Shown piece by piece: positions 1,996 to 61,578 of a stretch of 64,000 nt of DNA. Each line of letters opens with the position of its first letter. Positions within the stretch are counted from its first letter, which is position 1. This stretch comes from Cohnella algarum (lineage in GTDB: Bacteria > Bacillota > Bacilli > Paenibacillales > Paenibacillaceae): the NCBI RefSeq assembly GCF_016937515.1, contig NZ_JAFHKM010000002.1, positions 1,111,001-1,175,000 on the forward strand, in the 5' to 3' direction. Below the pieces are notes generated by a model that worked only from the letters and a program-made list of their open reading frames with translations, ran no database searches and had not been told where the DNA came from. The position numbers and the translations under genes are program-made.

Positions 1996-2279
1996 TTTTT
2001 GCATGATATTTCGCACAGACCTCTGCCAATTGCCGCCTCGGCGATGATATTTGTACGATTTTTCATACAAAACCGGCCAGCCAGACGGTTCCGCACTCAT
2101 TTTTGTACGATATTTCATACAAAACCTCTTCATTTGCCGCCTCGGCGATGACTTTTGTACGATTTTTCATACAAAAACGTCCTGCCGACGGCCCAACGCC
2201 CATTTTTGCATGATATTTCGCACAAACCTCTGCCAATTGCCGTCTCTGCAGGGACATTCGAACGACTTTTCATACAAAG
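1996..2279. repeat. Array of six palindromes with 52-bp spacing (array 1)
   Basis: Six copies of a dyad start at about 1997, 2050, 2101, 2153, 2204 and 2257, so spacings are 53, 51, 52, 51 and 53 bp. The best copies are TTTTGTA-N10-TACAAAA (2101-2124 and 2153-2176). Units alternate in their flanks: odd copies continue into CTCTGCCAATTGCCG-like sequence and even copies into GGCCAGCCAGACGG-like sequence, giving a real period of about 104 bp. The array sits between csaB and the DUF5693 gene, in an 800-bp gap with no convincing ORF. There are no cas genes, and the sequence between dyads is conserved, so it is not CRISPR. Confidence 0.85.
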
Positions 2280-2320
2280 TCGCCCTGCCAGGCGCCAGCT
2301 GCCGCTTTGCCCGTACGCGC

Positions 2321-2484
2321 CGTCGCATTTCGCGCGGGGAACGCTCGCCTGCCCTCATGCGTCGGTCGCGAACCGTCTGTTGGTTAAGTCGCACCTCGCG
2401 CGGAGAGCTGCCCGCCTCCCCCCTGCGTTTTGCCGGGGAGGCGACGGGCCGGCTGGTCTCGCACCCACGCGGGAAGCTGCTTCG
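2321..2484. repeat. Three degenerate ~66-70 bp repeats
   Basis: A stretch resembling GTCGCACCTCGCGCGGAGAG occurs at about 2323, 2389 and 2459, with spacings of 66 and 70 bp. The copies are imperfect. They fill the gap between array 1 and the end of the DUF5693 gene. I see no gene here. The rest of the gap (1681-1995) contains several copies of TTTGTCCGAA on the minus strand but nothing I can name. Confidence 0.45.
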
Positions 2485-4536
2485 CTACCCTTTCGCTGCC
2501 TTCGTCAGCCGCCCGCCGTAGCGGCGCCACAGCGACTCGCCGATTTGCCAGACGCCGATGGCGATCAGGCCGATCACCGCTCCAAGGCCCAAGCCGAGCA
2601 GCACGCGGATCAGCGAAAGCTTGAGCGGCGTATGAATGTGCGCGAACGTGTCGACCATCGACAGCTGGCCGATCGAAGCGGCCACGAGCAGCACCGTCGC
2701 CCAGCGATAGCGCAGGGAGAGGAACAGCCCGAGCAGGAGCGCCGGGTGCGCCAGCGCGAATTCCTTGAAACGCGGTCGAACGCCGAACGTGTTTTCGAGA
2801 TAGGAGCGGATCGTCAATTCAAGACTGCTCGCCTGTCCGCTGTTGCCGGTGCGCGTCAGGTAATAGTAGCCGACCCCCGCGATGACGACCGCGGCGACGA
2901 TCATGAGCACCGTGATCGGCATGCGCAGGATGCGAGCGACGTTATCCTTGACCGAACCGTCGGCCCCGTACAGGAACACGTAGATCGCCACGAGCCCGAT
3001 CGGCGCGAGATGCAGCAGGCTGACGCCGCGGAACTGCTGCAGCGCAAGGCTGTACGTAATGTCGTTCAGCAGCGCGACGACGAACGGGACGGCCGCAAGC
3101 GACAGCACCGACGTGCCGACGTACAGCACGGCGGCCTTGAGCAGCCGGGAAGCCGCGGACGCCGAGGCCTCCCGCCCGAGCTCGCGCTTGGCGCGAAGCC
3201 AGCGGACGGCCAGCACGAGGGCGGCGGTCGGCGCGGCGATCGCGACGAGCAGCGAGAGCGCCTGGTCGAGCAGCGAAGCTTGCAGCGCGACCACCCCCGC
3301 TCCGCCGATCGCGCCGAGGATCGTGATCGGCACGAGCAGCGAAGGAAGGAACAGGCCGGCCGTCAGCGCCACCAGGGCGACCGCCCCGGCCGTCGCCAGC
3401 GCGCGAAGCGCGTTTTCCGCGGGAGCATGGCGCACCGTGAACGAATGGGCTTCGCCGACGGTGAAGCCGAAGTGATTCAGCTGCTCGATCGCGCCGGCTT
3501 GCTCGCCGTCGCCTTTCAGCGCTTTGACGATCGTTTCGATCGGATTGTTGATCCGCACGTTCGCCGAATCCCTTACCGCGGCCGCATTCAAATAAATGAA
3601 GCGAATGTTGCGGTCCTTCACCGCCAGGACGATGCGATCCGCCAGCGTCGCCGGTTGGATGACGGACATTTCGGATTCCGAAATCGAGTGCAGCCGCGCC
3701 ACGTCGAAATCGAGCATCCGGGCGAGCGAGCCGAAGCCTTGCTGCGGAAGCTTCAGGTTTTCGATGGCGCCGATGCCGATGCCGGCGTCCTTGAGCTGCG
3801 AGGCGAACGCCTTCAGCGTTCCGTCCGTCGCCTCGTTGCCGAACCCGGTTACCGCGTCGCCGTCGAAAATAATATTTTTCACGCCGTACTCTCGGAACGA
3901 TTGCAGCCATTTTCCCATTTCCGTCTGATCGTACAGCTTGCCGCGATCGGACAGCCGGGGAACGATCATGAAGCCCTCGTCCCGCAGCTTTTCCATCGCG
4001 AGCGGGTTTGGCTGCATCGGTACCATATACGCGACTTCGGGCACCGTTTCCAACACGAGACCGCTACGCCCTTGCGCGCTCCATTCGCCCATGCCGATGC
4101 CGGCTTTTCCGAAGGCGTTTGCGATCAATTCCCGGATGACGCCCTCGTGCTCCGGCTTGTTGAAAAGCAAATACGTGCGATTGTCGCCGACCTCGGCAAG
4201 CTCGCCTTCCAGCAGCGCGGCTTGCGAGGCGTTATATACGTTCACTTCCCCGGACCAGATCAGTTCGTCCAAACTGCTTTCAAACACCGCCATGGCGTTG
4301 ACGCCGGCATCCTTCAGAACGGCCAGCTGGTCGTCGACAAAAGCTTCCGGATTGAGCTGGGTTGCGGACACCTGCAACAAATCCCGGTAGTCCATGATCA
4401 TTTCCACTTGATTCGCGGAATGCTCCGTGACCGAGCGGGCGTACATGACCGGCAGCGAGCCGATCAGACCGAGCAGCACGACCCACCATAACCACTTGGC
4501 CAATCTCCGGTTCCATTTTTCAAGCCAATGGGGCAC
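2485..4536 (-). CDS. DUF5693 family membrane protein
   Basis: This is a protein of about 683 residues with one N-terminal membrane segment (WLWWVVLLGLIGSLPVMY), an extracytoplasmic domain of about 330 residues, and a C-terminal half with many hydrophobic segments. The pattern fits the DUF5693 family, whose function is unknown and which often lies next to csaB in Paenibacillus and Bacillus relatives. I start it at the GTG at 4536 because AAGGAG sits eight bases upstream; the GTG at 4545 directly abuts that site and cannot use it. The extracytoplasmic part resembles polysaccharide-deacetylase-like barrels in flavour, but I see no clear catalytic motif. A role in cell-wall polymer export or modification is inferred from its neighbour csaB only. 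Confidence 0.75.
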   Translation of the reverse strand: MPHWLEKWNRRLAKWLWWVVLLGLIGSLPVMYARSVTEHSANQVEMIMDYRDLLQVSATQLNPEAFVDDQLAVLKDAGVNAMAVFESSLDELIWSGEVNVYNASQAALLEGELAEVGDNRTYLLFNKPEHEGVIRELIANAFGKAGIGMGEWSAQGRSGLVLETVPEVAYMVPMQPNPLAMEKLRDEGFMIVPRLSDRGKLYDQTEMGKWLQSFREYGVKNIIFDGDAVTGFGNEATDGTLKAFASQLKDAGIGIGAIENLKLPQQGFGSLARMLDFDVARLHSISESEMSVIQPATLADRIVLAVKDRNIRFIYLNAAAVRDSANVRINNPIETIVKALKGDGEQAGAIEQLNHFGFTVGEAHSFTVRHAPAENALRALATAGAVALVALTAGLFLPSLLVPITILGAIGGAGVVALQASLLDQALSLLVAIAAPTAALVLAVRWLRAKRELGREASASAASRLLKAAVLYVGTSVLSLAAVPFVVALLNDITYSLALQQFRGVSLLHLAPIGLVAIYVFLYGADGSVKDNVARILRMPITVLMIVAAVVIAGVGYYYLTRTGNSGQASSLELTIRSYLENTFGVRPRFKEFALAHPALLLGLFLSLRYRWATVLLVAASIGQLSMVDTFAHIHTPLKLSLIRVLLGLGLGAVIGLIAIGVWQIGESLWRRYGGRLTKAAKG

Positions 4537-4591
4537 AACATTCACTCCTTAAGTTATCAAGCATTGCGCTGTTGTTTGTCGGATGCGCCCG

Positions 4592-6301
4592 TCAGCTCAA
4601 GGCGTCCACTCGCTGCATGACCGCCGCGACCAGTTGGCCGAGGGCGGCTTCCGCCTTGTCCAGACCTTCGCCTCTAACGGCAAAGTACACTTTGATTTTC
4701 GGCTCGGTGCCGGACGGCCGGAGGCAGAACCAGGAGCCGTCCGCCAGCATGAATTTAAGCACGTTTTCCTTCGGCAAGCCGTCGAGTCCCGTTTCGTAAT
4801 CGAGCACCTTCGTTACGGAGATTCCCGCGACCGCGGCGGGGGGATTCGCGCGCCAGTCGTTCATGATGCCGGCGATTTTGGCGACGCCGTCCTTGCCCTT
4901 GAGCGTGCGGGACTCCAGCTTCTCCATATACGTTCCGTACTCGGCGTACAATTCGAGAAGCACGTCGTACAGCGTCTTTCCTTGCTCCTTGTAGTACGCG
5001 GCGGCCTCGCTAATCAGCAGCGAAGCGACGACCGCATCCTTGTCCCGCGCGTAAGCGCCCGTCAAATAGCCGTAGCTCTCCTCATAGCCGAACAGGAAGG
5101 AATGCTCGCCCGTCCGCTCGAACTCGGTTATTTTTTCGCCGATATATTTGAAGCCCGTCAGCGTGTTGATGACCGACATGCCGTACGATTTGGCGATGTC
5201 CGCGCCCATTTCGCTGGTGACGATCGTTTTGACGACGGCGCCATTCGCCGGTAGTTTGCCCACTTTTTTCAAATTGGACAGCAGATAGTGAACCATGATC
5301 GCTCCCGACTGGTTGCCGGAAAGCACCTCGTAGCGGCCCTCGTTGTTTTTGACGACGGCGCCCATCCGGTCGCAATCGGGATCCGTTCCGATGATCAGAT
5401 CCGCGCCGAGCTTTTCCCCGAGTTCGATCGCCAGCGCAAACGCTTCGCGCTCTTCCGGATTCGGCGACTTGACGGTCGAGAAGTAGCCGTCCGGCCGCTC
5501 CTGCTCGGGCACGACATGCACGTTTCCGAAGCCCGCCTTTGCAAGAGCTGCCCGCACCGGAACGTTGCCGGCCCCGTGAAGCGGCGTATACACGACGGTC
5601 AGCCGGTCGCCCGCTCCGCCGCGCAAAAACTCGGGCTGAACCGTCTGCGAGACGACGGCGCCGACAAACCGCTCGTCCGCCTCCTCGCCCAGCCATTCGA
5701 TCAGCCCTTTCGCTTCCGCTTCCTGCCGCGTCAGGCGCTTCACTTCGTCGAACGACGCCACCTCCCGGATCGCGGCAATGACCCGCTCGGCATCGTCCGG
5801 AATCAATTGCCCGCCGTCCGCGCCGTAAACTTTATATCCGTTATACTCGGGCGGGTTGTGGCTCGCGGTGACGACGATGCCGCCCGCGGCTTTCAAATCC
5901 CGCACCGCGAACGACAGCTGGGGCGTCGGGCGGAGCGATGGGTAGAGGTACGTTTTGATGCCGTTCGCGGCAAGAACGCACGCGGCTTCCAGCGCGAACG
6001 TATCGGATTGGTTGCGGGAATCGTGAGCGATGACGACCGAAGGCGAGGAAAACCGGGCAAGCAAATAGCGCGCGAAGCCCTGCGTCGCTTTGCCGACGAC
6101 GTAACGGTTCATCCGGTTCGTGCCCGCGCCCATGACGCCGCGAAGCCCCCCGGTTCCGAACTCCAGATCGCGGTAAAACCGGTCTTCGATTTCCGCGGGT
6201 TCGTCCGCGATCCGGCGCAGCTCGGCTTTCGTTTCTTCATCTACATTGGGATCGTTCAGCCAGGCGGTGTAAAGTTCTGTCGCTGTCGGTTGATTCGGCA
6301 T
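4592..6301 (-). CDS. pgcA: Phosphoglucomutase / phospho-sugar mutase PgcA
   Basis: This enzyme interconverts glucose 6-phosphate and glucose 1-phosphate, feeding UDP-glucose and cell-envelope glycan synthesis. The 569-residue length is that of alpha-D-phosphohexomutases. The active-site serine loop TASHNPPEYNGYK has Ser147, the metal-binding loop DPDCD spans about 307-311, the sugar-specificity loop GYEESYGYL lies near residue 400, and the phosphate-binding loop RPSGTEPKIK is near the C-terminus. The gene lies between fabZ and the DUF5693 gene, with short gaps on both sides. It could act on mannose phosphate as well, but PgcA is the usual assignment for a single-copy enzyme of this length in Bacillales. 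Confidence 0.93.
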   Translation of the reverse strand: MPNQPTATELYTAWLNDPNVDEETKAELRRIADEPAEIEDRFYRDLEFGTGGLRGVMGAGTNRMNRYVVGKATQGFARYLLARFSSPSVVIAHDSRNQSDTFALEAACVLAANGIKTYLYPSLRPTPQLSFAVRDLKAAGGIVVTASHNPPEYNGYKVYGADGGQLIPDDAERVIAAIREVASFDEVKRLTRQEAEAKGLIEWLGEEADERFVGAVVSQTVQPEFLRGGAGDRLTVVYTPLHGAGNVPVRAALAKAGFGNVHVVPEQERPDGYFSTVKSPNPEEREAFALAIELGEKLGADLIIGTDPDCDRMGAVVKNNEGRYEVLSGNQSGAIMVHYLLSNLKKVGKLPANGAVVKTIVTSEMGADIAKSYGMSVINTLTGFKYIGEKITEFERTGEHSFLFGYEESYGYLTGAYARDKDAVVASLLISEAAAYYKEQGKTLYDVLLELYAEYGTYMEKLESRTLKGKDGVAKIAGIMNDWRANPPAAVAGISVTKVLDYETGLDGLPKENVLKFMLADGSWFCLRPSGTEPKIKVYFAVRGEGLDKAEAALGQLVAAVMQRVDALS

Positions 6302-6363
6302 GATTCACTGCTCCTTCTCCAACATGATTTTTATATTGACAACGGCGCAAGCCTTGCGCGGGA

Positions 6364-6801
6364 TCAGCCTTTGGCCGGATCCGTCAGCGCGAACATCAGG
6401 ACGCCTTCCGCCACGACGCGGTCGCCGACCCTAGCCGTTGCTTGGCCTTTGCCCACAGGACCTTTTAACCGGATAATTTCCACTTCAAGCGTAAGCGTAT
6501 CGCCGGGAGTCACCTGGCCGCGCCAGCGAAATTCGTCCACGCCCGCGAAAAGTCCGATTTTGCCCTTGTTTTCCTCGACGGACAAAATGGCGGCGGCGCC
6601 GACCTGGGCCAGCGCTTCCAAAATAAGCACGCCCGGCATGACGGGATAACCGGGAAAATGCCCGACAAAGTAAGGCTCGTTCATCGTTACGTTTTTCAGG
6701 CCGACGGCCTTTTTGCCCGCATCGAGCTCCAGGATCCGGTCCACCAGCAAAAACGGGGGACGGTGCGGAATGATGTCCTGGATTTGCGTAATATCCAACA
6801 T
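6364..6801 (-). CDS. fabZ: (3R)-hydroxyacyl-ACP dehydratase FabZ
   Basis: FabZ removes water from 3-hydroxyacyl-ACP in the type II fatty acid elongation cycle, in the cytoplasm. The hot-dog fold signature [13 protein letters not shown] carries catalytic His48, and Glu62 follows in LILEALAQ. The length of 145 residues is normal. The ribosome binding site AGGAGG precedes the ATG. In B. subtilis the same gene (ywpB) lies near flhO/flhP and mbl, and that synteny is kept here. Confidence 0.95.
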
Positions 6802-6987
6802 AAAGCAACCTCCTGATCGTTCTTCGAATTCGGACGGCTTTTCGCCCGGTTTGCATGCATACGCAGCGCTTTTTCGGTCGATACTTAAAACGTCCCTTTG
6901 GCGAGCTGCAGTCGCCGAGGTTGATATAAGAGAGCTTGCCGCCGTTGGCCGTTCGCGTAAAACCGGTCCGGCGGCGAGTTCTTTTGT

Positions 6988-7512
6988 TTATTTCGCGTTC
7001 GTTTCCGGGACGCCGTTCAGGTTGCGGAATTTCATAAAATAGACGCCCGTCGCCACGAAGCTGAGCGCGATCGCGCACCATAATGCCGCCGTTCCGCCGG
7101 GAAGCCCGAGAAACAGCAGCAATATCGCCAAATAATAGACGAACGTGGTCACCTTTCCAAGCCCGTTCGCGGGAACGGTTTTCATGCCGCGAAAATAAAA
7201 ATAAGCGGAACTGGCGATCATGCCGATCTCCCGGAACGCCATAATGACCGCGGCCGACCACGGAATTTCCCTGCCGATGACAAGCGCCGCAACGACCGCC
7301 AGCATCATCAGCTTGTCCGCTAACGGATCGAGCATGATGCCGGTGACGGTCACCTGTCCGCTGCTGCGGGCAATGTAACCGTCGAGCAGGTCCGTAAGGC
7401 CCGCTAGTAAAACGATGCATAACGCCGCTACCGAATGGTCGTTGAAATACAGCGCCAAAAACAAGGGAATCATTACAAATCGGGACATCGTCAGCAAGTT
7501 AGGCAAGTTCAT
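6988..7512 (-). CDS. CDP-alcohol phosphatidyltransferase (PgsA-like)
   Basis: This is an integral membrane enzyme of 174 residues that would condense CDP-diacylglycerol with an alcohol such as glycerol 3-phosphate. The complete family motif is visible: Asp41, Asp44-Gly45, Ala48-Arg49, Gly58, Asp62 and Asp66, in the segment starting DLLDGYIARS. The rest is five or six hydrophobic helices. Phosphatidylglycerophosphate synthase is the most likely activity, but a paralogue using another alcohol cannot be excluded. The 186-bp gap to fabZ shows no clear terminator. Confidence 0.85.
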   Translation of the reverse strand: MNLPNLLTMSRFVMIPLFLALYFNDHSVAALCIVLLAGLTDLLDGYIARSSGQVTVTGIMLDPLADKLMMLAVVAALVIGREIPWSAAVIMAFREIGMIASSAYFYFRGMKTVPANGLGKVTTFVYYLAILLLFLGLPGGTAALWCAIALSFVATGVYFMKFRNLNGVPETNAK

Positions 7513-7600
7513 TCCCGATCCCCCATTTCTCCAAAGCTCCCATTATTATAACGCTCGGCCCATCGAGCGTAAACCTGACCGCCGCGAACGGCACAAATAA

Positions 7601-7621
7601 CCCCCCGGTTGAGCCGGGGGG
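7601..7621 (-). terminator. Rho-independent terminator after the EpuA-type gene
   Basis: CCCCCCGG pairs with CCGGGGGG around a five-base loop, followed on the minus strand by TTATTTGT. It lies downstream of the small membrane protein gene ending at 7656 and upstream of pgsA. Confidence 0.8.
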
Positions 7622-7655
7622 AGTCAAAGCCCGGTGGCCGGCGGCAGCCGAAGCC

Positions 7656-7907
7656 TCAGCCGCCTTGTGCGAAGACGAGGTCGTACATGTGCCGCCACGT
7701 TTCCCATTGGAACACATCGGCAAACTCTCTTTCACCGAGCACCACATATCCGAACGCCAGCCCTGCGGCCAAGGCGATCACGCAAACAATCGGAATAGCC
7801 AAAACTTTGAGGCACGTCCAGACGATCGATCTGAACGCTTTGCCTGCCGAACGTTTCTTGCCGTTCGCGGGCCGTTTCGGTTCCGGCGAACGGGTTGATG
7901 CCGTCAC
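7656..7907 (-). CDS. EpuA-type small membrane protein (annotated 'RNA polymerase subunit beta')
   Basis: The 83-residue protein has a basic N-terminus of about 30 residues, one transmembrane helix (about 34-55) and a short outer tail. The motif GLAFGYVVLGE after the helix is typical of the EpuA family (PF11772), which databases often label DNA-directed RNA polymerase subunit beta although the label has no clear functional basis. It lies just downstream of flhP (19-base gap), as small genes of this kind do in other Bacillales. Function unknown. Confidence 0.7.
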   Translation of the reverse strand: MTASTRSPEPKRPANGKKRSAGKAFRSIVWTCLKVLAIPIVCVIALAAGLAFGYVVLGEREFADVFQWETWRHMYDLVFAQGG

Positions 7908-7926
7908 TGATTAATTCCTCCTTATG

Positions 7927-8769
7927 TTACCCGCGAAGGTCGGTCGCCATCTGCATCATTTGGTCGCTGGAGGACAACGCTCTGGCGTTTAATTGATAGG
8001 CCCGCTGCACGGTTATCAGGTCGGCCATCTCGCTCGTCAGATCGACATTGGATTGCTCAAGGAAGCCTTGACGGATGGAGGCGCCCCCGTCTTGTCCCGG
8101 CATGGCGGCCACGACTTGGACGACGTCGCCTACGTCCACGTTGTCGGGGACGCCGTACAGGTTGTCGCCGACCGATTGGAGCAGGTCCGGCTTCGTCACT
8201 TCCACCAGCTTTAGTGTGCCGAGATCGAGCACGGTCAATCCGTCGCGGCTTTTCGCCATTATGCCGCCGTCTGCGCCGACGACCAATTCATAGTCGTCCG
8301 GCACTTCGACGAACGTGTCGGCCGTGCCGTTCGAGGCGACGACGGGATATCCCGTGTTCGTCATCAACATTCGGGTTCCGTTGCCGGTCGGCACGAGTTC
8401 GAAAGCGCCCTGGCGGGTGAAGACGCGGTCCCCGTTCAACGCATTGCCCGCCCGCAGCTCGAACAAGGCGTTGCCTTCGATGGCGACGTCGGTCGAGCTG
8501 TTCGTCTGCTGAAGCGGCCCCTGGGTCAGATCGAGCGTTTGCGAGACGATCCTCGCTCCCCATCCTTGCGTAAACCCGAGCGGACTGCGGCGTCCCGGCA
8601 GCAGAAAATCGTCCTTGTGCGGTTGGACGCTGGTCAAAATGTCTTCGAATACGGCATCCTTCCGCTTATAGCCGCTCGTATTCAGGTTGGCGATGTTGTC
8701 CGCCAAAATATCGAGCTTCTGCTGCAGGGAACCCATCGATGCCGCCGCGCTGATCATGGAGTTGTTCAT
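7927..8769 (-). CDS. flhP: Flagellar hook-basal body protein FlhP (FlgG-like)
   Basis: This is a 280-residue rod/hook-family protein. The N-terminal rod motif LDILADNIANLNTSGYKRKD (about 19-38) and the C-terminal helix AYQLNARALSSSDQMMQMAT are diagnostic of FlgG/FlgF-type distal rod proteins. It follows flhO in the same direction and lies in the conserved spoIIID-mbl-flhO-flhP cluster. In B. subtilis FlhO and FlhP are needed for hook-basal body completion. Confidence 0.92.
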   Translation of the reverse strand: MNNSMISAAASMGSLQQKLDILADNIANLNTSGYKRKDAVFEDILTSVQPHKDDFLLPGRRSPLGFTQGWGARIVSQTLDLTQGPLQQTNSSTDVAIEGNALFELRAGNALNGDRVFTRQGAFELVPTGNGTRMLMTNTGYPVVASNGTADTFVEVPDDYELVVGADGGIMAKSRDGLTVLDLGTLKLVEVTKPDLLQSVGDNLYGVPDNVDVGDVVQVVAAMPGQDGGASIRQGFLEQSNVDLTSEMADLITVQRAYQLNARALSSSDQMMQMATDLRG

Positions 8770-8816
8770 GCCGGTTCAACTTCCTCCTTCAATCTCTGGC
8801 TGATACGTCCGTTCGA

Positions 8817-9683
8817 TTAAACCTTGCCGACTTCGTTGACGGATTTGTCCAGGCTTCTATCCAAATATTGGACCATTTTCTGATTGGCTTCGTACGCGCG
8901 AAGCGCCGACATCATATCGACCATCGACTGCGAAGCGTCCACGTTCGAGCGCTCCAGATAGCCTTGGCGAATTTCCACGCGATCCCCCGCCTGCACCTGG
9001 GCGATGCCGGCATCCTCTCCGTCATAGCGAAACAGGCCGTTGCCTTCGCGCACGAGATCGTTCGGATTGTCGACCCGCGTCAGCATCAGCTGCGGATTGC
9101 CCGCAAGCGGCGCGTTCGTCGTCCTGTCGATCAGCAGGCCGTCGGTCGTGATGGCGACATTATCCCAGGAACCGTCATACGCAATGTTCTGGCCGTTCGC
9201 GCCGAGCACCGGCAAGCCCTCGGACGTAACGAGCGTGCCGTCGTCCGTCGTCTGGAAGCTGCCGTTGCGGGTATAGCGCTGCGTGCCGTCCGGCATGGCG
9301 ACCGTAAAGAACGCCTGCGGCTGATACGTGACGTTTCCGTCCGCGTTCACGAACTTGCCCGAGCCGTCGAACACGGCGCCGGGAACCGCGATATCGGAGA
9401 CGAGCGCCATATCCTGCGAGCGGTTCGTCTCCATCAGGTCGCCCTGCATCAGGCCGAGCAGGCTTTCTTCGGCGAAAACGCCCGTGTTCAGCTTGCCGAT
9501 CGACGAGCCGGACGGATCGCTCCCGCCCATCGCGTACAGGAGCACCTCCGGAAAGGCGCGGCTGACCGAGCTCGTTCCCTTGTAGCCGGGCGTATTGAGG
9601 TTGGCGATGTTGTTCGTCACCGTATCGTGGCGTCTTTGCTCCGCGATCATTCCCGATGCTGCCGTATACAGTCCTCTGATCAT
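8817..9683 (-). CDS. flhO: Flagellar hook-basal body protein FlhO (FlgF-like)
   Basis: This is a 288-residue paralogue of the following gene. It begins MIRGLYTAASGMIAEQRR, continues with the rod motif NNIANLNTPGYKG, and ends with the coiled-coil helix RAYEANQKMVQYLDRSLDKS. Between these lies the usual beta-rich central domain. The start is 12 bases beyond the mbl stop, so mbl, flhO and flhP probably share a transcript, linking rod/hook assembly to the cell-shape gene. Confidence 0.92.
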   Translation of the reverse strand: MIRGLYTAASGMIAEQRRHDTVTNNIANLNTPGYKGTSSVSRAFPEVLLYAMGGSDPSGSSIGKLNTGVFAEESLLGLMQGDLMETNRSQDMALVSDIAVPGAVFDGSGKFVNADGNVTYQPQAFFTVAMPDGTQRYTRNGSFQTTDDGTLVTSEGLPVLGANGQNIAYDGSWDNVAITTDGLLIDRTTNAPLAGNPQLMLTRVDNPNDLVREGNGLFRYDGEDAGIAQVQAGDRVEIRQGYLERSNVDASQSMVDMMSALRAYEANQKMVQYLDRSLDKSVNEVGKV

Positions 9684-9695
9684 GTTATCCCTCCG

Positions 9696-10694
9696 TCATC
9701 CCAGCTTGCGGGTCATTTTGTCCAGATGGTCCAGCATGATGCCGGTGCCTTTGACGACGCAGTGCATCGGGTCCTCCGCGATGAGAACGGGCACCTTCAG
9801 CTCGTCGGCGAGCAATGCGTCCAAACCGTCCAGAAGCGCGCCGCCGCCCGTCAGAATCACGCCGCGGTCGATAATGTCCGCCGACAGCTCCGGAGGCGTC
9901 CGTTCCAGCACCGACTTGGCCGCCGCCACGATATTCGACACCGGCTCCCAAAGCGCCTCGCGCACCTCGTCGGAATGAATCGTGACGGTGAGCGGCAAGC
10001 CCGACACCATGTCGCGCCCGCGAATATCCATCTCTTCGCGCCGGCCGTCCAGGTGGACCGTGCCGATTTTGATTTTGATGTCTTCGCTCGTCCTTTCTCC
10101 GATCAGCAGCTTGTATTTGCTTTTTATGTACTTCATGATCGCCGCGTCGAACTTGTCCCCCGCGACTTTAAGAGAAGAGGCGGTTACGACGTCGCCCATG
10201 GACAGGACGGCCACATCCGTCGTACCTCCGCCGATATCGACAACCATATTGCCGCTGGGCTGAAAAATATCCATCCCGGCGCCGATCGCGGCCGCCTTGG
10301 GCTCCTCTTCGAGGAACACCTCTTTGGCCCCGCTTCTTTCCGCCGCTTCGCGGATCGCTTTCTGTTCGACCGACGTAATATTGGTCGGCGCGCAAATCAA
10401 AATGCGGGGGCGGCTGTACCACGAGCGCCCGCCTACCCGTTGTATGAATGCCTTCAGCATCATATCCGTCACTTCGAAATCGGCGATGACCCCGTCCCTC
10501 AGCGGGCGGATGGCGACGATATTGCCCGGCGTCCGGCCGACCATCCGGTGCGCTTCCTCTCCGACGGCGAGCACCTTGCGCGTATCGCTTTCGATGGCAA
10601 CGACGGAAGGCTCGTCGAGCACGACTCCCTTGCCTTTAACGTGAATGGACACATTGGCGGTGCCCAGATCGATTCCGATGTCTTTGCTGAACAT
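9696..10694 (-). CDS. mbl: Rod-shape protein Mbl (MreB-like actin)
   Basis: Mbl forms membrane-associated filaments that guide lateral cell-wall synthesis. ATP-binding elements are visible: DLGTANVS (phosphate 1, about residue 8), VVDIGGGTTDVAV (phosphate 2, about 160) and LTGGGALLDG (adenosine motif). I choose the ATG at 10694, giving 332 residues beginning MFSKDIGIDLGTAN. An upstream in-frame ATG at 10739 would add 15 atypical residues, and GGGGGA precedes the chosen start. Position next to spoIIID distinguishes Mbl from MreB. Confidence 0.95.
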   Translation of the reverse strand: MFSKDIGIDLGTANVSIHVKGKGVVLDEPSVVAIESDTRKVLAVGEEAHRMVGRTPGNIVAIRPLRDGVIADFEVTDMMLKAFIQRVGGRSWYSRPRILICAPTNITSVEQKAIREAAERSGAKEVFLEEEPKAAAIGAGMDIFQPSGNMVVDIGGGTTDVAVLSMGDVVTASSLKVAGDKFDAAIMKYIKSKYKLLIGERTSEDIKIKIGTVHLDGRREEMDIRGRDMVSGLPLTVTIHSDEVREALWEPVSNIVAAAKSVLERTPPELSADIIDRGVILTGGGALLDGLDALLADELKVPVLIAEDPMHCVVKGTGIMLDHLDKMTRKLG

Positions 10695-10847
10695 GTTTCG
10701 AGAATCCCCCAGCGAGATGAAATGACGGCTGCTGCGCATATCGGCCTGTACTGCCCGGCTTTAGCGAAGAGTTCCGATAATACCGTAATGGTATAGTATT
10801 CGCCGTCTTTTATTAAAATCCTCTTTTTTGTCGAGGGATATCCAAAA

Positions 10848-11135
10848 TTATGCTTTTCCCGCTGTCAAAACTTCGCGTTTTTTGACCGTCGTCTTCTTGT
10901 ACTTGATTTTCGTCGCTTCCCCTCCCCTCAAATGGCGAATCGATTTGTGATATTCCAGAATGTGCTTTACCTGGTCCGCCAAATCCGGATTGATCTCCGG
11001 CAGCCGCTCGGTCAGGTCTTTATGCACCGTGCTTTTGGAGACGCCGAATTCCTTGGCGATCGTCCGTACCGTGTTGCGAGTTTCCACTATGCACCGGCCG
11101 ATCTTGATGGTGCGTTCCTTGATGTAATCGTGCAC
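10848..11135 (-). CDS. spoIIID: Sporulation transcription factor SpoIIID
   Basis: SpoIIID is the mother-cell regulator that adjusts the sigma-E regulon and helps switch on sigK. The 95-residue protein carries the helix-turn-helix TVRTIAKEFGVSKSTVHKDL (about 23-42) and the basic C-terminal tail KIKYKKTTVKKRE used for DNA binding. The start is GTG, seven bases after GGAGG. A sigma-E-like promoter lies 33-60 bases upstream. The 153-bp gap to mbl has AT-rich sequence but no clear hairpin terminator. Confidence 0.97.
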   Translation of the reverse strand: MHDYIKERTIKIGRCIVETRNTVRTIAKEFGVSKSTVHKDLTERLPEINPDLADQVKHILEYHKSIRHLRGGEATKIKYKKTTVKKREVLTAGKA

Positions 11136-11167
11136 GCTCCCGCCTCCCTGCTCGAATAGATTGGTAC

Positions 11168-11195
11168 ATTATATGAGGGGCGCGGTCACTTATTC
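11168..11195 (-). promoter_or_regulatory. Sigma-E-like promoter of spoIIID
   Basis: On the minus strand, GAATAAG (11189-11195) and CATATAAT (11168-11175) are separated by 13 bases. They resemble the sigma-E -35 (KMATATT) and -10 (CATACANT) elements, and spoIIID is sigma-E dependent in B. subtilis. This is a pattern match only. Confidence 0.5.
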
Positions 11196-11284
11196 TTTGT
11201 TCTCGGGGCTGACAAGCTCAAGAAAGATCAGCAGCGGCAAGTCTTGTAGGTCGAACGTCCAAGCGGCATGTCCCGAAAAGGCAT

Positions 11285-11311
11285 GAAAAAAGACGGAGTT
11301 TCCTCCGTCTT
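11285..11311 (-). terminator. Terminator after HD-GYP gene 1
   Basis: A perfect 9-bp stem (AAGACGGAG/CTCCGTCTT) with a four-base loop is followed on the minus strand by six T. It lies about 70 bases past the stop of the HD-GYP gene ending at 11383 and before the spoIIID promoter. Confidence 0.88.
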
Positions 11312-11382
11312 CGGCTGCATGCGCGTTCGTTTTGTCCTCCGCCAAGGCCTCGAAGGCCTTGTCCCGACATCCGCCCGCCAAC

Positions 11383-12528
11383 TTAAAATTGGGCATCGTC
11401 CTTCATGGACGCCTGAACGATCACGAGATCGTTGCGGTCCCGCAAATCGATTTCATACGGCGTCGTCACCCTCGTTCCGTCCGCTTCCCGCAAAATGCGG
11501 ACGACCGGCCGATAGTGCAAGCCGTTGTCCGCGTCGACGACCTTGCCGACCTGCCCGCTGCTCAGCTTCACCGTAACGGAAACCGGGAACATCGAAACGT
11601 TTCGCACGAAAAGCCGGACGAGCTCCAGATCGAAGTCGTAATTGCCGGAAGCGAACAAATACTCCATCGCCTCCCCGAGCGTATACGGCTTCCGGTAATG
11701 CCGCGGCGAAATAAGAGCGTCGTAAATGTCGGCGACCCCGACGATTTGCGCGTATTCGGGAATGTCCTTGTTTTTCAGGCCGAACGGGTACCCGGTGCCC
11801 CGGTACCGTTCATGGTGCAGCAGCGCGCATCTCGCGGCGGCCGGCGAGACGTCGGGAATGCTTGACAGCACTTCGTAGCCCTTGATCGTATGCTGCCGCA
11901 TCAGTTCCCGTTCCGAGTCGCTGAGCTCGCTGGTCGCCTTGACGATGCCGGGCGGAAGGCGCGTCATTCCGATATCGAACAAGAGCGCTCCCGTCGTCAA
12001 TTCGAACAGCCTGCTCTTGTCGTAATTTTTCGCGATGCCGATCAGGCAGGACAACAGACTCACCTGAAGGGAGTGCTCGAACAAAAATTTGTCCGTTTGC
12101 AGCAGCACGCCAAGCTCCTCCGCGATCGGCCGCTGCATGATGATTTCCAGCAGCACGTTCCGGTACTCCTTGCGGAACCGCTCTTCCAGTCCCGAATCGG
12201 CCACCCGTCCGATCGCATGCTCGGACTCCGCCAGCTTCGCCGCCGCGAGGGAAGCCTGCTTGCGCGCCTCGTCGTTGTTCCGCATCCGCTCCATGTCCGG
12301 CGGACTGTGCGGGATGTCCCGGAAGCCGAACGCGCTTTGGGCGGGGAGGGCGAACTCCTTCTCCTTCAAAGCGACGGTTCTCACGCCCAGATTTTTCAAA
12401 CGCCGGATATAAGACTCCGTCAGCACGGTGTTTTTTTCAAGCATGACGATGCCGTTATGGCTTTGAACCGACTTCGCCAGGACGTCTCCCGCCTCCAAAT
12501 CGCGAACGTCGACTTCCCTCCAACTCAT
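11383..12528 (-). CDS. HD-GYP domain protein with degenerate HD motif (copy 1)
   Basis: This is a 381-residue cytoplasmic protein. The N-terminal ~60 residues (DLEAGDVLAKSVQSHNGIVM) resemble the small domain that precedes many HD-GYP domains, and the HD-GYP domain follows from about residue 150. HD-GYP proteins normally hydrolyse cyclic di-GMP. Here the motif that should read LLHDIGK is LLFDIGM, so the metal-binding His and the Lys are replaced, while HSLQV, HHERYRGTGYP and VADIYDAL are kept. The start ATG follows GGAGGGGG. It lies 31 bases behind a paralogue with the same substitution. It may be a weak or non-catalytic sensor; this is inference. Confidence 0.88.
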   Translation of the reverse strand: MSWREVDVRDLEAGDVLAKSVQSHNGIVMLEKNTVLTESYIRRLKNLGVRTVALKEKEFALPAQSAFGFRDIPHSPPDMERMRNNDEARKQASLAAAKLAESEHAIGRVADSGLEERFRKEYRNVLLEIIMQRPIAEELGVLLQTDKFLFEHSLQVSLLSCLIGIAKNYDKSRLFELTTGALLFDIGMTRLPPGIVKATSELSDSERELMRQHTIKGYEVLSSIPDVSPAAARCALLHHERYRGTGYPFGLKNKDIPEYAQIVGVADIYDALISPRHYRKPYTLGEAMEYLFASGNYDFDLELVRLFVRNVSMFPVSVTVKLSSGQVGKVVDADNGLHYRPVVRILREADGTRVTTPYEIDLRDRNDLVIVQASMKDDAQF

Positions 12529-12559
12529 ATCTCTTCCCCCTCCCAGGCCGTCAAGCGCC

Positions 12560-13735
12560 CTACACTCGTTCCGGCACGAATGATTGTTCGGGCACGGCCC
12601 GAACGATGACGAGACGGCTGCTTTGGCTCAAATCAATCCGGTAGGGGACGGCGGCATCCGTTCCGTCCGCCTCCCGGATCACTCTCACGACGGGCCGATG
12701 GGCGAGCCGGCCGTTTACGCTTTCGACTACGCCAAGCTGACCGTTGCTAAGCAAAACCGCCGTCGAAACGGGGTACGCCGCGACATGGCGCAAAAACAGC
12801 TGGATCATTTCCATGCCGAAGTCGTAATTGCCGGCCGCGAACAAATACTCCATCGCCTCATGGTTCGAATACGGATTGCGGTGATGCCGTTTGGAAGTAA
12901 GCGCGTCGTAAACGTCGGATAGCCCGACGATTTGGGCCAGATCCGAGATCTCCTTCTTCTTCAATCCGTGCGGATAGCCGCTGCCGTTGAACCGCTCGTG
13001 ATGAAGCAGCGCGCAGCGGGCGGCTTGCTGGGGGACGTCCCGAATGCCGCTCAGCACCTGATAGCCGAACGTCGTATGCTTGCGCAGCGTGGCCTTTTCG
13101 GCGTCGGAAAGTTGGCGCTTCGCCTGGATGAGCTTTGTCGGCAGCCGCGTCATGCCCACGTCGAACAGAAGCGCGCCGACCGTCAACTCGTGCATCTTCG
13201 CCGGATCGAAGCCGTTCAGCAAGCCGATAACGTTCGACAAGAGCGTCACCTGAAGCGAGTGATCGAACATGTACGGATCCGTTTGCCGGATGACGGCCAG
13301 CTCCTCCGCGAGCGGACGGGTATGAACGATTTCCCGCAGGCGGTTCCGCAGCTCCTCGCGAAAGCGCCGGCGGTCTTCGTCCGGAAGCAGCAGCCGGGCG
13401 AACGTCTCGTCCGCTTCGGCGAATCGCACGATCGAATCGGAAGCGCCCCGGACGGCGGCCGGGTCGTCTTTGATCCTGTCGAATTCGGCGGTCCGCAGCC
13501 CTAATTCCTTGTCCGCCTCGTGCGCCGCGGTCCTTCCTCCGGCAGGAGCCGCCGCCGGCTGCGCTCCGCTCCTCGAACGAAGGGCGATTCTCGCAAATCC
13601 CAGCTTCCGCAATCTCTCTATGTAGGACTCCGACAAAACCGTGCCGGCTTCCAGCATGACAATTCCGTTTTTGGCGAGCACCGCCCGATCCAGCACGTCT
13701 CCGGAACGCAATTCATTTACATGAACTTCCAGCAT
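12560..13735 (-). CDS. HD-GYP domain protein with degenerate HD motif (copy 2)
   Basis: This is a paralogue of the next gene downstream, 391 residues from the chosen start. The architecture is the same: a short N-terminal domain (LRSGDVLDRAVLAKNGIVML), a linker, then HD-GYP. The HD site reads LLFDVGM instead of LLHDIGK, while HHERFNGSGYPHGLK and GLSDVYDAL are intact. I choose the ATG at 13735 because AAGGAAGGA lies six to eight bases before it; the ATG at 13756 has no ribosome binding site. The tandem pair shares about half of its residues by eye, which suggests local duplication. Confidence 0.88.
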   Translation of the reverse strand: MLEVHVNELRSGDVLDRAVLAKNGIVMLEAGTVLSESYIERLRKLGFARIALRSRSGAQPAAAPAGGRTAAHEADKELGLRTAEFDRIKDDPAAVRGASDSIVRFAEADETFARLLLPDEDRRRFREELRNRLREIVHTRPLAEELAVIRQTDPYMFDHSLQVTLLSNVIGLLNGFDPAKMHELTVGALLFDVGMTRLPTKLIQAKRQLSDAEKATLRKHTTFGYQVLSGIRDVPQQAARCALLHHERFNGSGYPHGLKKKEISDLAQIVGLSDVYDALTSKRHHRNPYSNHEAMEYLFAAGNYDFGMEMIQLFLRHVAAYPVSTAVLLSNGQLGVVESVNGRLAHRPVVRVIREADGTDAAVPYRIDLSQSSRLVIVRAVPEQSFVPERV

Positions 13736-20822: not shown

Positions 20823-21289
20823 TTCTTAAGTCGGTATGGATACGGAACGAAGGTCCCGCTTGCTTGCCTGAAATCCGTCTTACCCGTCGCTAAACACTTA
20901 CACGTCAACTTGAGATTCGTAACATTAAATATTTCGAGAGGCTCGCGCGTTTCCCCTTCCTGACCGCGAAAAAACAGTACTTTTGTCACAATGCGCAGCG
21001 AAGAAGCCATCAAGCGGCACCGGGTTGACAGAGGAATGCCCGCAAAAATGCAGGCTTTGCCGGAGGTGAAAGGCCCTCGGGGGCGCGTTCGTTCTGAAAA
21101 AAACCGCATATTCGTATGAACGCTTCGAAGATCGGCCAATTGGGGAGGAAAAGCCTCCGCATTTGCAGGCTTTTACGTGCAGAGTTGGTGTGGTAACACG
21201 ATAGAAAAGAGATGGCCGGGCGGTTTTCTTAACGGCTGAAACGCCGGTTCGCGAAAGTGCTCGGCCGCATGCATAGGGTTCGCCGAGAT
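20823..21289. other. Non-coding upstream region of the protease, two GCCTGCA hairpins
   Basis: I see no gene here. Two related hairpin sequences lie at 21039-21056 (GCCTGCA with TGCGGGC) and 21153-21170, and an AT-rich TTGACG-containing stretch near 20910 on the minus strand could be part of the protease promoter. Nothing here matches a riboswitch that I recognise. Confidence 0.4.
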
Positions 21290-21824
21290 GAGTCGCCACG
21301 ACTCAAATGGATTGGCAGCTTGGTGCGGAGGCGGTGAGATGGGTCATTTTTACTCAAATGCGTATGGCCGTGTGCGTTTGGCGGGTCAAGATGAATCGCC
21401 ACGACTCAAATGGATTGGCAGCAAGCGTTCGGAGGCGGCGAAATGGGTCATTTTTACTCAATTGCGTATGGCTGTGTGCGTTTGGCGGGTCAAGATGAGT
21501 CGCCACGACTCAAATGGATTGGCAGCTTGGTGCGGAGGCGGTGAGATGAGTCATTTTTACTCAAATGCGTATGGCTGTGTGTGTATGGCGGGTCGAGATG
21601 AGTCGCCACGACTCAACTGGATTGGCAGCAAGCGTGCGGACGCGGTGAAATGAGTCATTTTTACTCAAATGCGTGCGGCCATCTGCGTTTGACGCGTCGA
21701 GATGAGTCACCACGACTCAAATGGATCGGTAGTAAGCGTGCGGACGCGGTGAAATGAGTCATTTTTACTCAACTGCGTGCGGCTATATGCGTATGGCGCT
21801 TCGAGATGAGTCGCCACGACTCAA
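21290..21824. repeat. Alternating palindrome array, 52-bp spacing, 104-bp period (array 2)
   Basis: Two palindromes alternate. Type A, GAGTCGCCACGACTC, starts at 21290, 21393, 21497, 21600, 21704 and 21808. Type B, GAGTCATTTTTACTC (GGG replaces GAG in two copies), starts at 21341, 21445, 21548, 21652 and 21756. A-to-A and B-to-B distances are 103-104 bp, and A-to-B distances 51-52 bp. The sequence between them is also conserved (for example AAATGGATTGGCAGC after A and AAATGCGTATGGC after B). The array lies between nuoN and the protease gene. It is the same family as the array at 61.2 kb. Confidence 0.93.
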
Positions 21825-21924
21825 ATGGATTGGCAGCTTGCGTACAAAGGCGGTGTGCGTATGGCTGTTCGACTCGGTTTTGCCTGGTTTGCTCTCGACC
21901 CGTCCCCCTATTGCGCCCGAATCT

Positions 21925-49505: not shown

Positions 49506-49627
49506 CGCCTTCGTTGGATTTCATCCAATCAAGAGCGGCTCTTTTGCGAATATCGCTGCCTTCATTGGATTTTATCCAATCCGGCAACGCTTTTTCTATG
49601 AAATCTAGCATAATCCCCGTTTTTCGT

Positions 49628-49640
49628 TGGATAAAATCCA
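49628..49640. repeat. Left target-site duplication (13 bp)
   Basis: TGGATAAAATCCA stands immediately before the left end of the IS element and is repeated directly after its right end at 51137-51149. The target lies inside the palindrome of array 4. Confidence 0.88.
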
Positions 49641-51136
49641 CTACGTATGCAAAAAACCTGACATGAAGCTAGCCAAAATAAAAAAAGTCTCCTAATGTAG
49701 AGGAAGCAGACAAAATTGCCCATTTCCCTACAAAGGAGAACTAACCCATGGGCAATATACACCAAAAAACGGTTATGCGCAAGTGTTTAAAAGAACTTAA
49801 GCTCCATATGGGAAAACTTCCTTTGGCGGATCGCTATGCGAAGAAATTGACGATCACCGCGGCCATCCTGTTATGTATCGAGGGGGAAATTCAGCAGCGA
49901 AGGACCTTGGAAGATATTCAGCTCCATTTGACTACAGATCCTTATCTTCAAAAACTGGCTGGCGTGTCTTCCGTTCATGCCTCGACGCTGAATCGAAAGC
50001 TGGCGAAACTGCCCTTGGATTACTTGCAGTGCATCTTCGAACGGTTAGCCTCCCGACTGCAACAACTGATGCCAGGCGCCAAGGGAGTTGGTCATTTGGG
50101 TAAACTGGCCCCTATCGATTCAAGCAGTTTCCTTCTTCCGTTTGTGTTTGGCGATTGGGCCTTTTATCAGGATCGAACCAAGGGGGTGAAGATGCACACT
50201 CGGCTGCTATGCTTGGACGAAGAAAATCCCTTTCCGGACCGGATCGTCTTGTCCACGGTTGGGGTCTCTGATCAGATGGCGGTTGATGAGCTCGTGACAC
50301 GCAAGGATCTGACCTACATTTTGGACCGGGGCTACGTGAATTACACGCGCTTTTGTGCATGGGCGAAAGACGGCATTACCTTTGTGGCCCGACTTAAAAC
50401 GACCAACACGTTCACGGTATTGCAGGAGCACCCTGTGAAGGCCGACACGCCGATCCTGCGGGATGCAACCGTCACGATCTACGACAAGAAGACGAAAACC
50501 CATCGGCCGTTTCGCTTGGTGGAGTTCCAGGACGAGAAGGGTCGGACCTACAGGCTGCTGACCAACCGCTTCGATCTTAGCGCCGCGGACGTAGGGGAAG
50601 TCTATCGCTGCAGATGGCAAATTGAGTTGTTTTTTAAGTGGATCAAGCAACACCTGACGACGATCACCTTTCACAACCATGATCCGAATGCCGTATGGGC
50701 TCAGTTGTATCTGGGCGTCATTAGCTATCTGTTGTGCCAGCTCGTGCATCGGCAAACGCCGAACAAGTTGACCCTGTTTAACTTTGTTCGTTATTTGCGT
50801 CATTACAGCCAATACCCGTGGAAGCGGTTCGTCGCCATCTTGAATAAACCTACGGAACGAACCAGTCGGGGAAGGCAAAAGCGAAAACAAGCCAAGACCG
50901 TCCCTCGGATTCAACCTGGCAGAGGCAAAAATGAACGTGAGGTTGTGAAGATTCTAGTCCCGTAACGAAACCATTTGGATCCAAACCTTTTTTTGGCAAT
51001 TTTTTCTGCGATTCCTCCCCTGTTGCTCGTTTTTCCTCTCCCCATCCAAACGACATGTAAAATATTAGGTCAAAGGAAATAATAATGACAAACCAACTCG
51101 GTACTGGATTTCGCGTTAGGTTTATTGCATGTATAG
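49641..51136 (+). mobile_element. IS4-family insertion sequence, 1496 bp, apparently intact
   Basis: The element begins CTACGTATGCAAAAAACCT and ends in the reverse complement of CTATACATGCAATAAACCT, giving imperfect terminal inverted repeats of about 27 bp with two-thirds identity. It carries one transposase gene in the plus direction and is flanked by a 13-bp direct repeat, which fits the long target duplications (about 9-13 bp) known for the IS4 family. GC content is lower than in neighbouring genes. The lack of decay suggests recent insertion. Confidence 0.9.
49748..50965 (+). CDS. IS4-family transposase (DDE)
   Basis: This is a 405-residue transposase. The catalytic residues are probably the Asp of LAPIDSSSF, the Asp of YILDRGYVNYT and the Glu of the IS4 signature Y-x2-R-x3-E-x6-K, visible as YRCRWQIELFFKWIK. 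A good ribosome binding site (AAGGAG) lies nine bases before the ATG. The basic C-terminal tail is common in this family. No frameshift is seen. Confidence 0.95.
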   Translation: MGNIHQKTVMRKCLKELKLHMGKLPLADRYAKKLTITAAILLCIEGEIQQRRTLEDIQLHLTTDPYLQKLAGVSSVHASTLNRKLAKLPLDYLQCIFERLASRLQQLMPGAKGVGHLGKLAPIDSSSFLLPFVFGDWAFYQDRTKGVKMHTRLLCLDEENPFPDRIVLSTVGVSDQMAVDELVTRKDLTYILDRGYVNYTRFCAWAKDGITFVARLKTTNTFTVLQEHPVKADTPILRDATVTIYDKKTKTHRPFRLVEFQDEKGRTYRLLTNRFDLSAADVGEVYRCRWQIELFFKWIKQHLTTITFHNHDPNAVWAQLYLGVISYLLCQLVHRQTPNKLTLFNFVRYLRHYSQYPWKRFVAILNKPTERTSRGRQKRKQAKTVPRIQPGRGKNEREVVKILVP

Positions 51137-51149
51137 TGGATAAAATCCA
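51137..51149. repeat. Right target-site duplication (13 bp)
   Basis: TGGATAAAATCCA follows the right end of the IS element; see the left copy at 49628-49640. Confidence 0.88.
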
Positions 51150-51328
51150 ACGTAGAGCGATATGACACGTCCTTTTCGCCCGCCGATTGGACAAAATCCA
51201 ACCTGGTCTCGCTCCGGCCGGGCGCACCTTCGAGCTCTTCTCGCGCCGGCCGCTGAATCGCCGGCAAGCGAACCCAAACGCTCTCGACGCCGAAGGCAGC
51301 GCGGCGATGCCGGCATTGGCCGGCCAAC

Positions 51329-57052: not shown

Positions 57053-57060
57053 TTTTACCT

Positions 57061-59106: not shown

Positions 59107-59137
59107 CGGAAAGCACGCTTAGCCAGCGAGGGGTCGC

Positions 59138-59167: not shown

Positions 59168-59202
59168 AATAAGTACGATGTATGCAAGATGCATTGACCC
59201 AT

Positions 59203-59327
59203 CCACTGCAGACGAGGTTAGCTGACGGACTCGGGCAAGATGGTACCCTATGACGCCTCATCGGCGCCAATTAGCCCCAAAAGATTGGTTCCCCCGCTTC
59301 CCGGCCGTTACGCGCGGGAATTAAGCG
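59203..59327 (-). promoter_or_regulatory. ydaO/yuaA-type cyclic di-AMP riboswitch
   Basis: Read on the minus strand, the element begins CGCTTAATTCCCGCG, continues AAGCGGGGGAACCAATC, GGGGCTAATTGG, AGGGTACC, and ends GTCCGTCAGCTAACCTCGTC. These match the conserved stretches of the ydaO aptamer, including the strongly conserved CCGTCAGCTAACCTCGT end. A terminator follows, so ligand binding would lower expression of the KamA-like gene. In this family c-di-AMP usually controls potassium transport, wall hydrolases and osmolyte functions. Confidence 0.92.
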
Positions 59328-59334
59328 TATTATC

Positions 59335-59364
59335 AGTATACACGGCATCATGAAGAAAGGTCAA
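59335..59364 (-). promoter_or_regulatory. Promoter of the riboswitch transcript
   Basis: TTGACC (59359-59364) and TATACT (59335-59340) are 18 bases apart on the minus strand. The predicted start falls at the first base of the riboswitch. Confidence 0.8.
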
Positions 59365-59365
59365 A

Positions 59366-59393: not shown

Positions 59394-59399
59394 GAAATT

Positions 59400-60008: not shown

Positions 60009-60032
60009 AGGTTTCTCCCCTTGCTCCGTATA

Positions 60033-60674: not shown

Positions 60675-60689
60675 GCCCCTTCATTCCCC

Positions 60690-61004: not shown

Positions 61005-61054
61005 AATGGCGTGCCCCCGCCCAAACATTACTTAATATATTTAGGTACATGGCT

Positions 61055-61092
61055 ATCATAAGGGAAAGTACTTAAAAATGCAAGGTACTTAT
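61055..61092 (-). promoter_or_regulatory. Promoter of padR with possible PadR operator
   Basis: TTGCAT (61078-61083) and TATGAT (61055-61060) are exactly 17 bases apart on the minus strand. AAGTAC-type half-sites occur on both sides (AAGTACCTTGCAT and AAGTACTTTCC), and GTACCT again just downstream, which could be PadR binding sites. Confidence 0.7.
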
Positions 61093-61104
61093 TTCGGGCC
61101 GCGG

Positions 61105-61127
61105 TAAAAAAAAGGGGCTGCCCCTTT
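61105..61127 (-). terminator. Minus-strand terminator before padR
   Basis: AAAGGGG and CCCCTTT pair around a three-base loop and are followed on the minus strand by five or more T. It blocks transcription coming from array 3 and glyA into padR. Confidence 0.75.
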
Positions 61128-61191
61128 CGGCCTGTCGCGACCTTGGGACAACCCGATCGAGGGCGGCTTGTTGCGAATGGCAGGTCGAGAT

Positions 61192-61578
61192 GAGTCGTCA
61201 CGACTCAACTGGATCGTTCGCATGCGTGCGGGGACGGAGAGATGAGTCATGGTTACTCAAATGAGTGCGATGAGGGCGGCTTGTTTCGCTGGCCGTTCGA
61301 GTTGAGTCGTCACGACTCAACTGGATCGTTCGCGTGCGAGCGGAGGCGGCGAGATGAGTCGTGGTTGCTCAAATGAGGGCGGCTTGTTGCGAATGGCGGG
61401 TCGAGATGAGTCGCCACGACTCAACTGGATCGTTCGCGTTCGTGCGGAGGCGGCGAGATGAGCCGTGGTTGCTCAAATGAGGGCGGCTTGTTGCGAATGG
61501 CGGGTCGAGATGAGTCGTCACGACTCAACTGGATCGTTCGCGTGCGTGCGGAGGCGGCGAGATGAGTCATGGTTACTC
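61192..61578. repeat. Alternating palindrome array, 52-bp spacing (array 3)
   Basis: Type A, GAGTCGTCACGACTC (one copy with CCA loop), starts at 61192, 61304, 61408 and 61512. Type B, GAGTCATGGTTACTC (related copies with CGTGGTTGCTC), starts at 61244, 61356, 61460 and 61564. A-to-B steps are 52 bp every time; B-to-A steps are 60, 52 and 52 bp, the first lengthened by an extra 8 bp. It is the same family as array 2 with diverged spacers (ACTGGATCGTTCGC after A). It lies between the glyA and padR terminators. Confidence 0.93.

Follow-up and report, generated by a model that had tools for sequence, protein, structure and literature searches.

Within the 6.21 Mb genome of Cohnella algarum (G000), we analyzed a stretch of 64 kb (C2:1,111,001-1,175,000, hereafter the window), which carries four arrays of short palindromes (dyads). 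Their units contain an inverted repeat and mostly follow each other at steps of 51 or 52 bp. In F1 (GAGTCG), the main family of these arrays, strand polarity is set by the direction of replication and not by the neighbouring genes. Judged by their length rule and intergenic placement, the arrays of the window almost certainly belong to the class of 52-nt tandem repeat satellites. The polarity escaped a preliminary description of the window, and it appears to be unpublished, as none was found described in the open-access literature searched. It is a new constraint on any account of the 52-nt satellites, in which length is fixed and sequence is free; it speaks against roles in transcription alone and for an origin or a use that is coupled to replication.

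Replication direction and the strand of the arrays

The plus strand of C2 carries the exact F1 cores (86 in all) from 17,927 to 1,677,762 and those from 5,187,016 onwards; between 1,800,641 and 4,537,119 they are on the minus strand, with the exception of one array of three cores. The gene dnaA is located at C2:1,706,405, and the GC skew changes sign near dnaA and between 4.71 and 4.87 Mb. The F1 strand switches near dnaA and a second time in the terminus region, between 4.54 and 5.02 Mb, which is also where the GC skew changes. The ends of the assembled contig overlap (G000:C2:16427-19441, locus L001, and 6186001-6194500, locus L315): the same array appears at C2:17,716 and C2:6,190,930 with a shift of 6,173,214, a 200-base piece that covers most of the array is identical, and the differences lie outside the array. 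This doubled array was subtracted from the F1 core, unit, merged-array and context counts; it still stands twice in the spacer, step, GC-skew, terminator and array-end counts.

F1 is anti-leading in 82 of 85 exact cores, in 293 of 304 units and in 46 of the 47 merged arrays with at least two units (p = 6.8e-13; single-unit arrays were left out). When only exact-core loci are considered, 39 of 40 agree (40 of 41 with the doubled array). The single reversed array (C2:2,528,832, 9 units) is otherwise normal and well kept. The distribution of genes would not by itself produce this polarity, as 624 of 804 C. algarum genes (78%) are on the leading strand according to a home-made gene caller. The F1 polarity holds in 17 of 18 convergent, 5 of 5 divergent and 1 of 1 lagging tandem contexts, i.e. 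in 23 of the 24 arrays with at most one leading-strand gene among their two neighbours (p = 3.0e-6), and it is thus not explained by transcription of the adjacent genes. On the leading strand, most F1 arrays are rich in C, opposite to the genome skew. An orientation that merely follows from GC skew was rejected, with 40 of 54 C. algarum arrays negative (one doubled) versus 5 of 11 in relatives; the C-richness of F1 is not common to the other families, and skew is therefore no general orientation rule.

Polarity was also followed in other families and species. Besides F1, the families of C. algarum comprise F2 (TTTTGTACGA), F3 (TTGGAT), F4 (GTGCGCTACATGG) and F5, the last being possibly a relative of F4. 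Among the 100 of 206 F4 matches listed, 13 of 15 multi-copy loci are polar, the single-copy matches at 89885 and 5814145 being left out of the locus count. F3 dyads with TTT/AAA centres carry TTT on the leading strand in 23 of 32 cases among the matches listed, array copies included. In genomes G016 and G006, which share one family, 7 of 8 array loci are polar relative to arms defined by dnaA and skew. The locus counts exclude single matches (three in G016, two in G006, one in G024 and two in G010); where scattered single matches of G016 lay no more than about 3 kb from an array, they were pooled with it. Three loci of G013 agree, but all lie on the same arm and provide a weak test.

A fixed unit length with free sequence

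The four palindrome arrays announced in the preliminary description are present, with most dyad steps at 51-52 bp, a single step of 60 and a single step of 62. Array 1 (1997..2279, plus strand) contains 6 dyads of family F2 (TTTTGTACGATWTTTCATACAAAA) at steps of 52, 52, 52, 51 and 52, with two types alternating at a period of 103. Array 2 (21284..21855, plus strand) is composed of 11 F1 dyads spanning 21289-21823, in which type A (TGAGTCGCCACGACTCA) alternates with type B (TGAGTCATTTTTACTCA) at a period of 104; each of its ten steps is 51 or 52, and the array is anti-leading. Array 4 (61159..61588, plus strand) is also anti-leading and has 8 F1 dyads with A/B alternation, which span 61191-61579 at steps of 52, 60, 52, 52, 52, 52 and 52. 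It is located downstream of glyA (61668-62915, minus strand) and of a terminator-like hairpin, recognized by eye, that follows glyA. The alternation of two unit types in three arrays is thus confirmed for arrays 1, 2 and 4, and their periods of 103-104 result from it.

Array 3 had been taken as one array from 49514 to 51201; its dyads are real, but they do not form a continuous 1.7 kb. The left part (49514..49641, no strand assigned) has 3 dyads of family F3 (TTGGATNNNATCCAA) at 49514, 49565 and 49627, with steps of 51 and 62, and the right part (51136..51201, no strand assigned) has dyads at 51136, a duplicated copy, and at 51187, with a step of 51. The F3 dyads point both ways inside this single array. 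Between the parts lies an insert of approximately 49642-51135, and the 13-base dyad core TGGATAAAATCCA is found as a direct repeat on both flanks, which we read as a duplication of the target. With the duplicated copy counted once, array 3 has four dyads and is broken up by an insertion sequence. All window arrays sit between minus-strand genes as defined by the home-made gene caller, with the transposase gene inside array 3 set aside. The preliminary description had placed the arrays between operons of the same direction, which is correct in the window and does not extend to the whole genome, where 18 of 46 classed F1 arrays are at convergent sites.

We sampled 864 kb of C. algarum as a near-regular grid of 20-kb pieces together with one dnaA piece and the window. 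In counts of arrays called by Tandem Repeats Finder (TRF) in C. algarum, its relatives and other families of the order, arrays more than half covered by home-made gene calls were excluded. The shortest period is 52 (21 arrays) or 104 (2 arrays) in 23 of the 45 mostly non-coding TRF arrays of C. algarum, and a further 8, of which seven are CRISPR-like, have periods of 65-67. A period of 50-52 is found in 18 of 29 TRF arrays from 22 related Cohnella genomes (1.04 Mb) and in 2 of 7 from 12 genomes of other families of the same order (560 kb); outside Cohnella, such arrays occur in two other Paenibacillales, G037 and G057. Diverse other bacteria (117 loci, 852 kb) yielded 59 arrays, coding and non-coding pooled, and none of these has a period of 50-54. 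The intergenic DNA of the 864 kb contains 28 dyad pairs at a distance of 50-54 bp, compared with a mean of 2.3 in 10 mononucleotide shuffles, and the distances between intergenic dyads peak at 52 (22) and 104 (23). Twenty first-order Markov (Markov-1) random windows gave 7 TRF arrays with a period of at least 20 and none above 24. An origin by chance was therefore rejected. The preliminary description had let its finding depend on an enrichment of 51-53 bp spacing beyond the window, and this test, run on genome samples, did not refute the finding.

A 50-52 bp array was detected in 9 of the 22 Cohnella relatives; 12 of the 13 others were sampled at 40 kb or less, and four of the 13 (G010, G014, G034 and G032) show such an array at glyA or wecB, two loci to which no coding filter was applied. 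Array sequences in relatives differ from the C. algarum families, and an F1-like array is present in G020 (L036). Extrapolation suggests roughly 165 arrays in the whole C. algarum genome. The TTGGATTTTATCCAA dyad is also widespread in C. algarum as dispersed single copies, with about 50 sites listed.

The claim that spacing is constant while sequence changes is borne out, and more strongly at the level of genome and genus. In 99 arrays with periods of 40-160 (CRISPR-like arrays included; five glyA/wecB loci without the coding filter), the copy-to-copy steps are 52 (185), 51 (92), 50 (12) and 53 (5). The remaining steps are mostly the 64-69 of CRISPR-like arrays, together with 62 (6), 42 (1), 93 (1), 60 (1) and 45-46 (8). 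That odd steps differ by about one helical turn is valid for 62, 42 and 93 (52 + 41), and fails for 60 and 45-46. The F1 spacers from A to B and from B to A are unrelated (28.1% ungapped identity versus 29.6% when shuffled), yet both are mostly 32 bp long (96 of 111 and 101 of 104 for the two alternating types). Within F1 arrays the AB and BA spacers are 90-92% alike, compared with 67-68% between arrays. Spacer length changes amount to approximately 0.014 per substitution, compared with 0.057 for a small control, the intergenic DNA that follows glyA in six species; the comparison is rough because array copies share descent.

Orthologous sites illustrate the same rule. At 30 glyA loci, downstream arrays of 51-52 bp are found in 4 (C. 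algarum, G014, G010 and G034), all different in sequence; G009 has a 48-bp array downstream and G012 a 52-bp array on the upstream side, and TRF found no array of this size at the remaining loci. G028, the closest relative by glyA (95%), has no array downstream of the gene. At the wecB locus, 1 of 30 genomes has an array. The different-sequence arrays at orthologous sites suggest that arrays come and go at a permissive glyA site and that the length rule outlives any single sequence.

Origin and role of the arrays

Contrary to the preliminary description, which knew of no named family with this layout, tandem repeats of 52 nt whose size is constant and whose sequence varies have been described in Bacillus by Subirana and Messeguer and are said to be abundant in Paenibacillus (PMC8161180). 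These satellites of Firmicutes form several species-specific families per genome, mostly of 4-10 units, with a constant unit of 51-53 nt (PMC8161180). Nucleoid stabilization or small RNAs have been proposed as their roles (PMC8161180 and passages of PMC8625621). The authors mention short sequences plus their reverse in one 52-nt repeat, and by our reading several consensus units in Table 1 of PMC8161180 contain inverted repeats; the terms 'palindrom', 'hairpin' and 'Cohnella' are absent from the text of that paper, and 'replication' occurs once, in an unrelated context. The Cohnella arrays match these satellites in the unit length of 51-53 nt, in the multiple families of the same length (F1-F5) and in the non-coding placement. 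In addition, they display replication polarity, dyads that are stepped at 52 bp over two unrelated alternating half-units, and occasional steps that are longer by one turn. Nothing that relates 52-bp arrays to replication was found in the open-access literature searched, including passages of PMC13155455.

In these 52-bp satellites, which are intergenic tandem arrays, a unit length of 51-52 bp, corresponding to five turns of B-DNA, is held and the sequence is left free. An oligomeric protein that reads the dyads or small hairpins, with one contact per five turns, would be the likeliest cause of the fixed spacing, and helical phasing of the dyads is plausible. For the arrays acting as DNA rather than RNA, as a DNA-level scaffold, we see about an even chance. 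Array copies might reach new sites in single-stranded form, by annealing at the replication fork, and their orientation relative to the fork would then be preserved; if single-stranded pieces of the lagging strand annealed at another fork, no repeat-specific enzyme would be needed. We advance this fork-borne spread tentatively, as slightly less than an even chance. The reading as a whole, phased DNA-level scaffolds that spread by a single-strand route at the replication fork, fits best and is given a probability of about 0.45. A stronger version, in which replication-polar repeats copy themselves under a five-turn protein ruler, so that the sequence drifts freely but length and orientation to the fork are passed on, appears unlikely.

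Several points weigh against phased scaffolds spread at the fork. No binding protein is known or was found. A dimeric protein would be expected to bind a symmetric dyad equally well either way round, and the polarity may therefore have another cause than the spacing. The p values for polarity assume independence, but loci of one family share descent. Only 11 of 15 F2 loci are polar (p = 0.12; a locus at 4.86 Mb that adjoins the terminus was excluded, and the count is 11 of 16 if it is included), and F3 dyads are mixed in orientation within array 3. Steps of 60 and 45-46 bp are not whole helical turns, and the 46 F1 arrays have no conserved ends that would mark a transposition product.

A role at the RNA level, in which read-through from the upstream gene yields hairpin RNAs, small RNAs or 3´ end structures, is among the proposals of Subirana and Messeguer (PMC8161180). 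It agrees with the presence of B. coagulans satellites in RNA-seq data (PMC8161180 and passages of PMC8625621) and with a preference for the 3´ sides of genes: 18 of 46 classed F1 arrays are convergent, compared with 61 of 358 gaps of at least 100 bp, an excess that shrinks against gaps of at least 300 bp (31 of 119). However, orientation tracks replication in the 23 of 24 arrays without two leading-strand flanking genes, the stem mismatches exhibit no consistent one-strand preference for G-T (29 G-T and 52 A-C in A units, 46 G-T and 12 A-C in B units, on the F1 strand), array 4 begins beyond its terminator-like hairpin, and a fixed 52-nt step has no evident RNA role. We consider such a role improbable. 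In C. algarum as a whole, terminator-like hairpins precede only 13 of 47 arrays, compared with 49 of 257 array-free gaps. The near-perfect polarity of F1 in both replichores, over the whole chromosome, could alternatively be that of directional marks for a translocase or a fork protein, with the orientation selected rather than a by-product of spreading. The guide sequences of SpoIIIE/FtsK are directional marks of this type, read by a translocase. The weaker polarity of the other families, sequences that differ among species, which is unlike a recognition signal, and the well-kept reversed array at C2:2,528,832 make this explanation quite improbable.

Dispersed intergenic palindromes are also known as REP/BIME elements with RAYT, and the IS200/IS605 elements prefer the lagging-strand template. 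The Cohnella arrays resemble REP/BIME in being dispersed intergenic palindromes with alternating unit types, on the 3´ side of genes and targeted by insertion sequences, and they differ in that their sequence is not conserved, their five-turn period is fixed, and a Y1 match is lacking in 25 of the 37 genomes of the genus. Movement by a Y1 transposase (RAYT or IS200/IS605-type) would suit palindromic, intergenic and fork-polar arrays that are dispersed in trans, and C. algarum has two full-length Y1_Tnp matches. In contrast, Y1_Tnp is found in only 12 of the 37 genus genomes and is missing from eight that bear arrays (G003, G006, G010, G012, G016, G024, G034 and G035), the 46 F1 arrays lack conserved ends, and unit length rather than sequence is constant. 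Y1/RAYT was therefore rejected as a general cause, and REP/BIME-like mobile repeats are very improbable. An insertion sequence or a unit like a miniature inverted-repeat transposable element (MITE) with conserved ends was likewise rejected, since no flank 8-mer is shared by more than 5 of the 46 F1 arrays. Least credible are ordinary slippage minisatellites whose common period is a coincidence or a founder effect. The 90-92% likeness of AB and BA spacers within arrays indicates that local duplication occurs, but the period peak at 50-52 in C. algarum and its relatives despite different sequences, the 0 of 59 arrays at 50-54 in other bacteria, and the unrelated alternating spacers of equal length oppose them; this explanation is already contradicted by the length histogram.

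CRISPR-like arrays and other elements

CRISPR arrays share with the Cohnella arrays regular repeats and partly palindromic units, whereas in the latter the whole unit repeats, without unique spacers, at a step of 51-52. CRISPR was rejected because the spacers of an F1 array, whether AB or BA, are 90-92% alike, and CRISPR-like arrays with steps of 64-69 occur separately in the genome. Several of these are located in L174 (G000:C2:2850001-2870000) at approximately 2057-13644, near a 52-bp F4 array, with at least 3 related repeat variants (GTTTCAATCCACGCA...GATGCGAC).

Some arrays have other steps. Near the terminus, the units of an intergenic array (L187, G000:C2:4873913-4874123) are 62 bp long and exceed 52 by one helical turn, and in G024 (L209) steps of 62 and 52 alternate. 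Non-coding arrays in L313 (G000:C2, about 5320272) and in G034 (L319) have steps of 45-46 bp, which correspond to no whole number of turns.

A known RNA family was rejected for the arrays, which have no Rfam match at gathering scores; the sole match in the window is a c-di-AMP riboswitch (RF00379, 72.5 bits) at 59192-59337 on the minus strand. The insertion sequence that splits array 3 contains a transposase gene (DDE_Tnp_1 in Pfam; 49748..50965, plus strand), which lies outside the array system.

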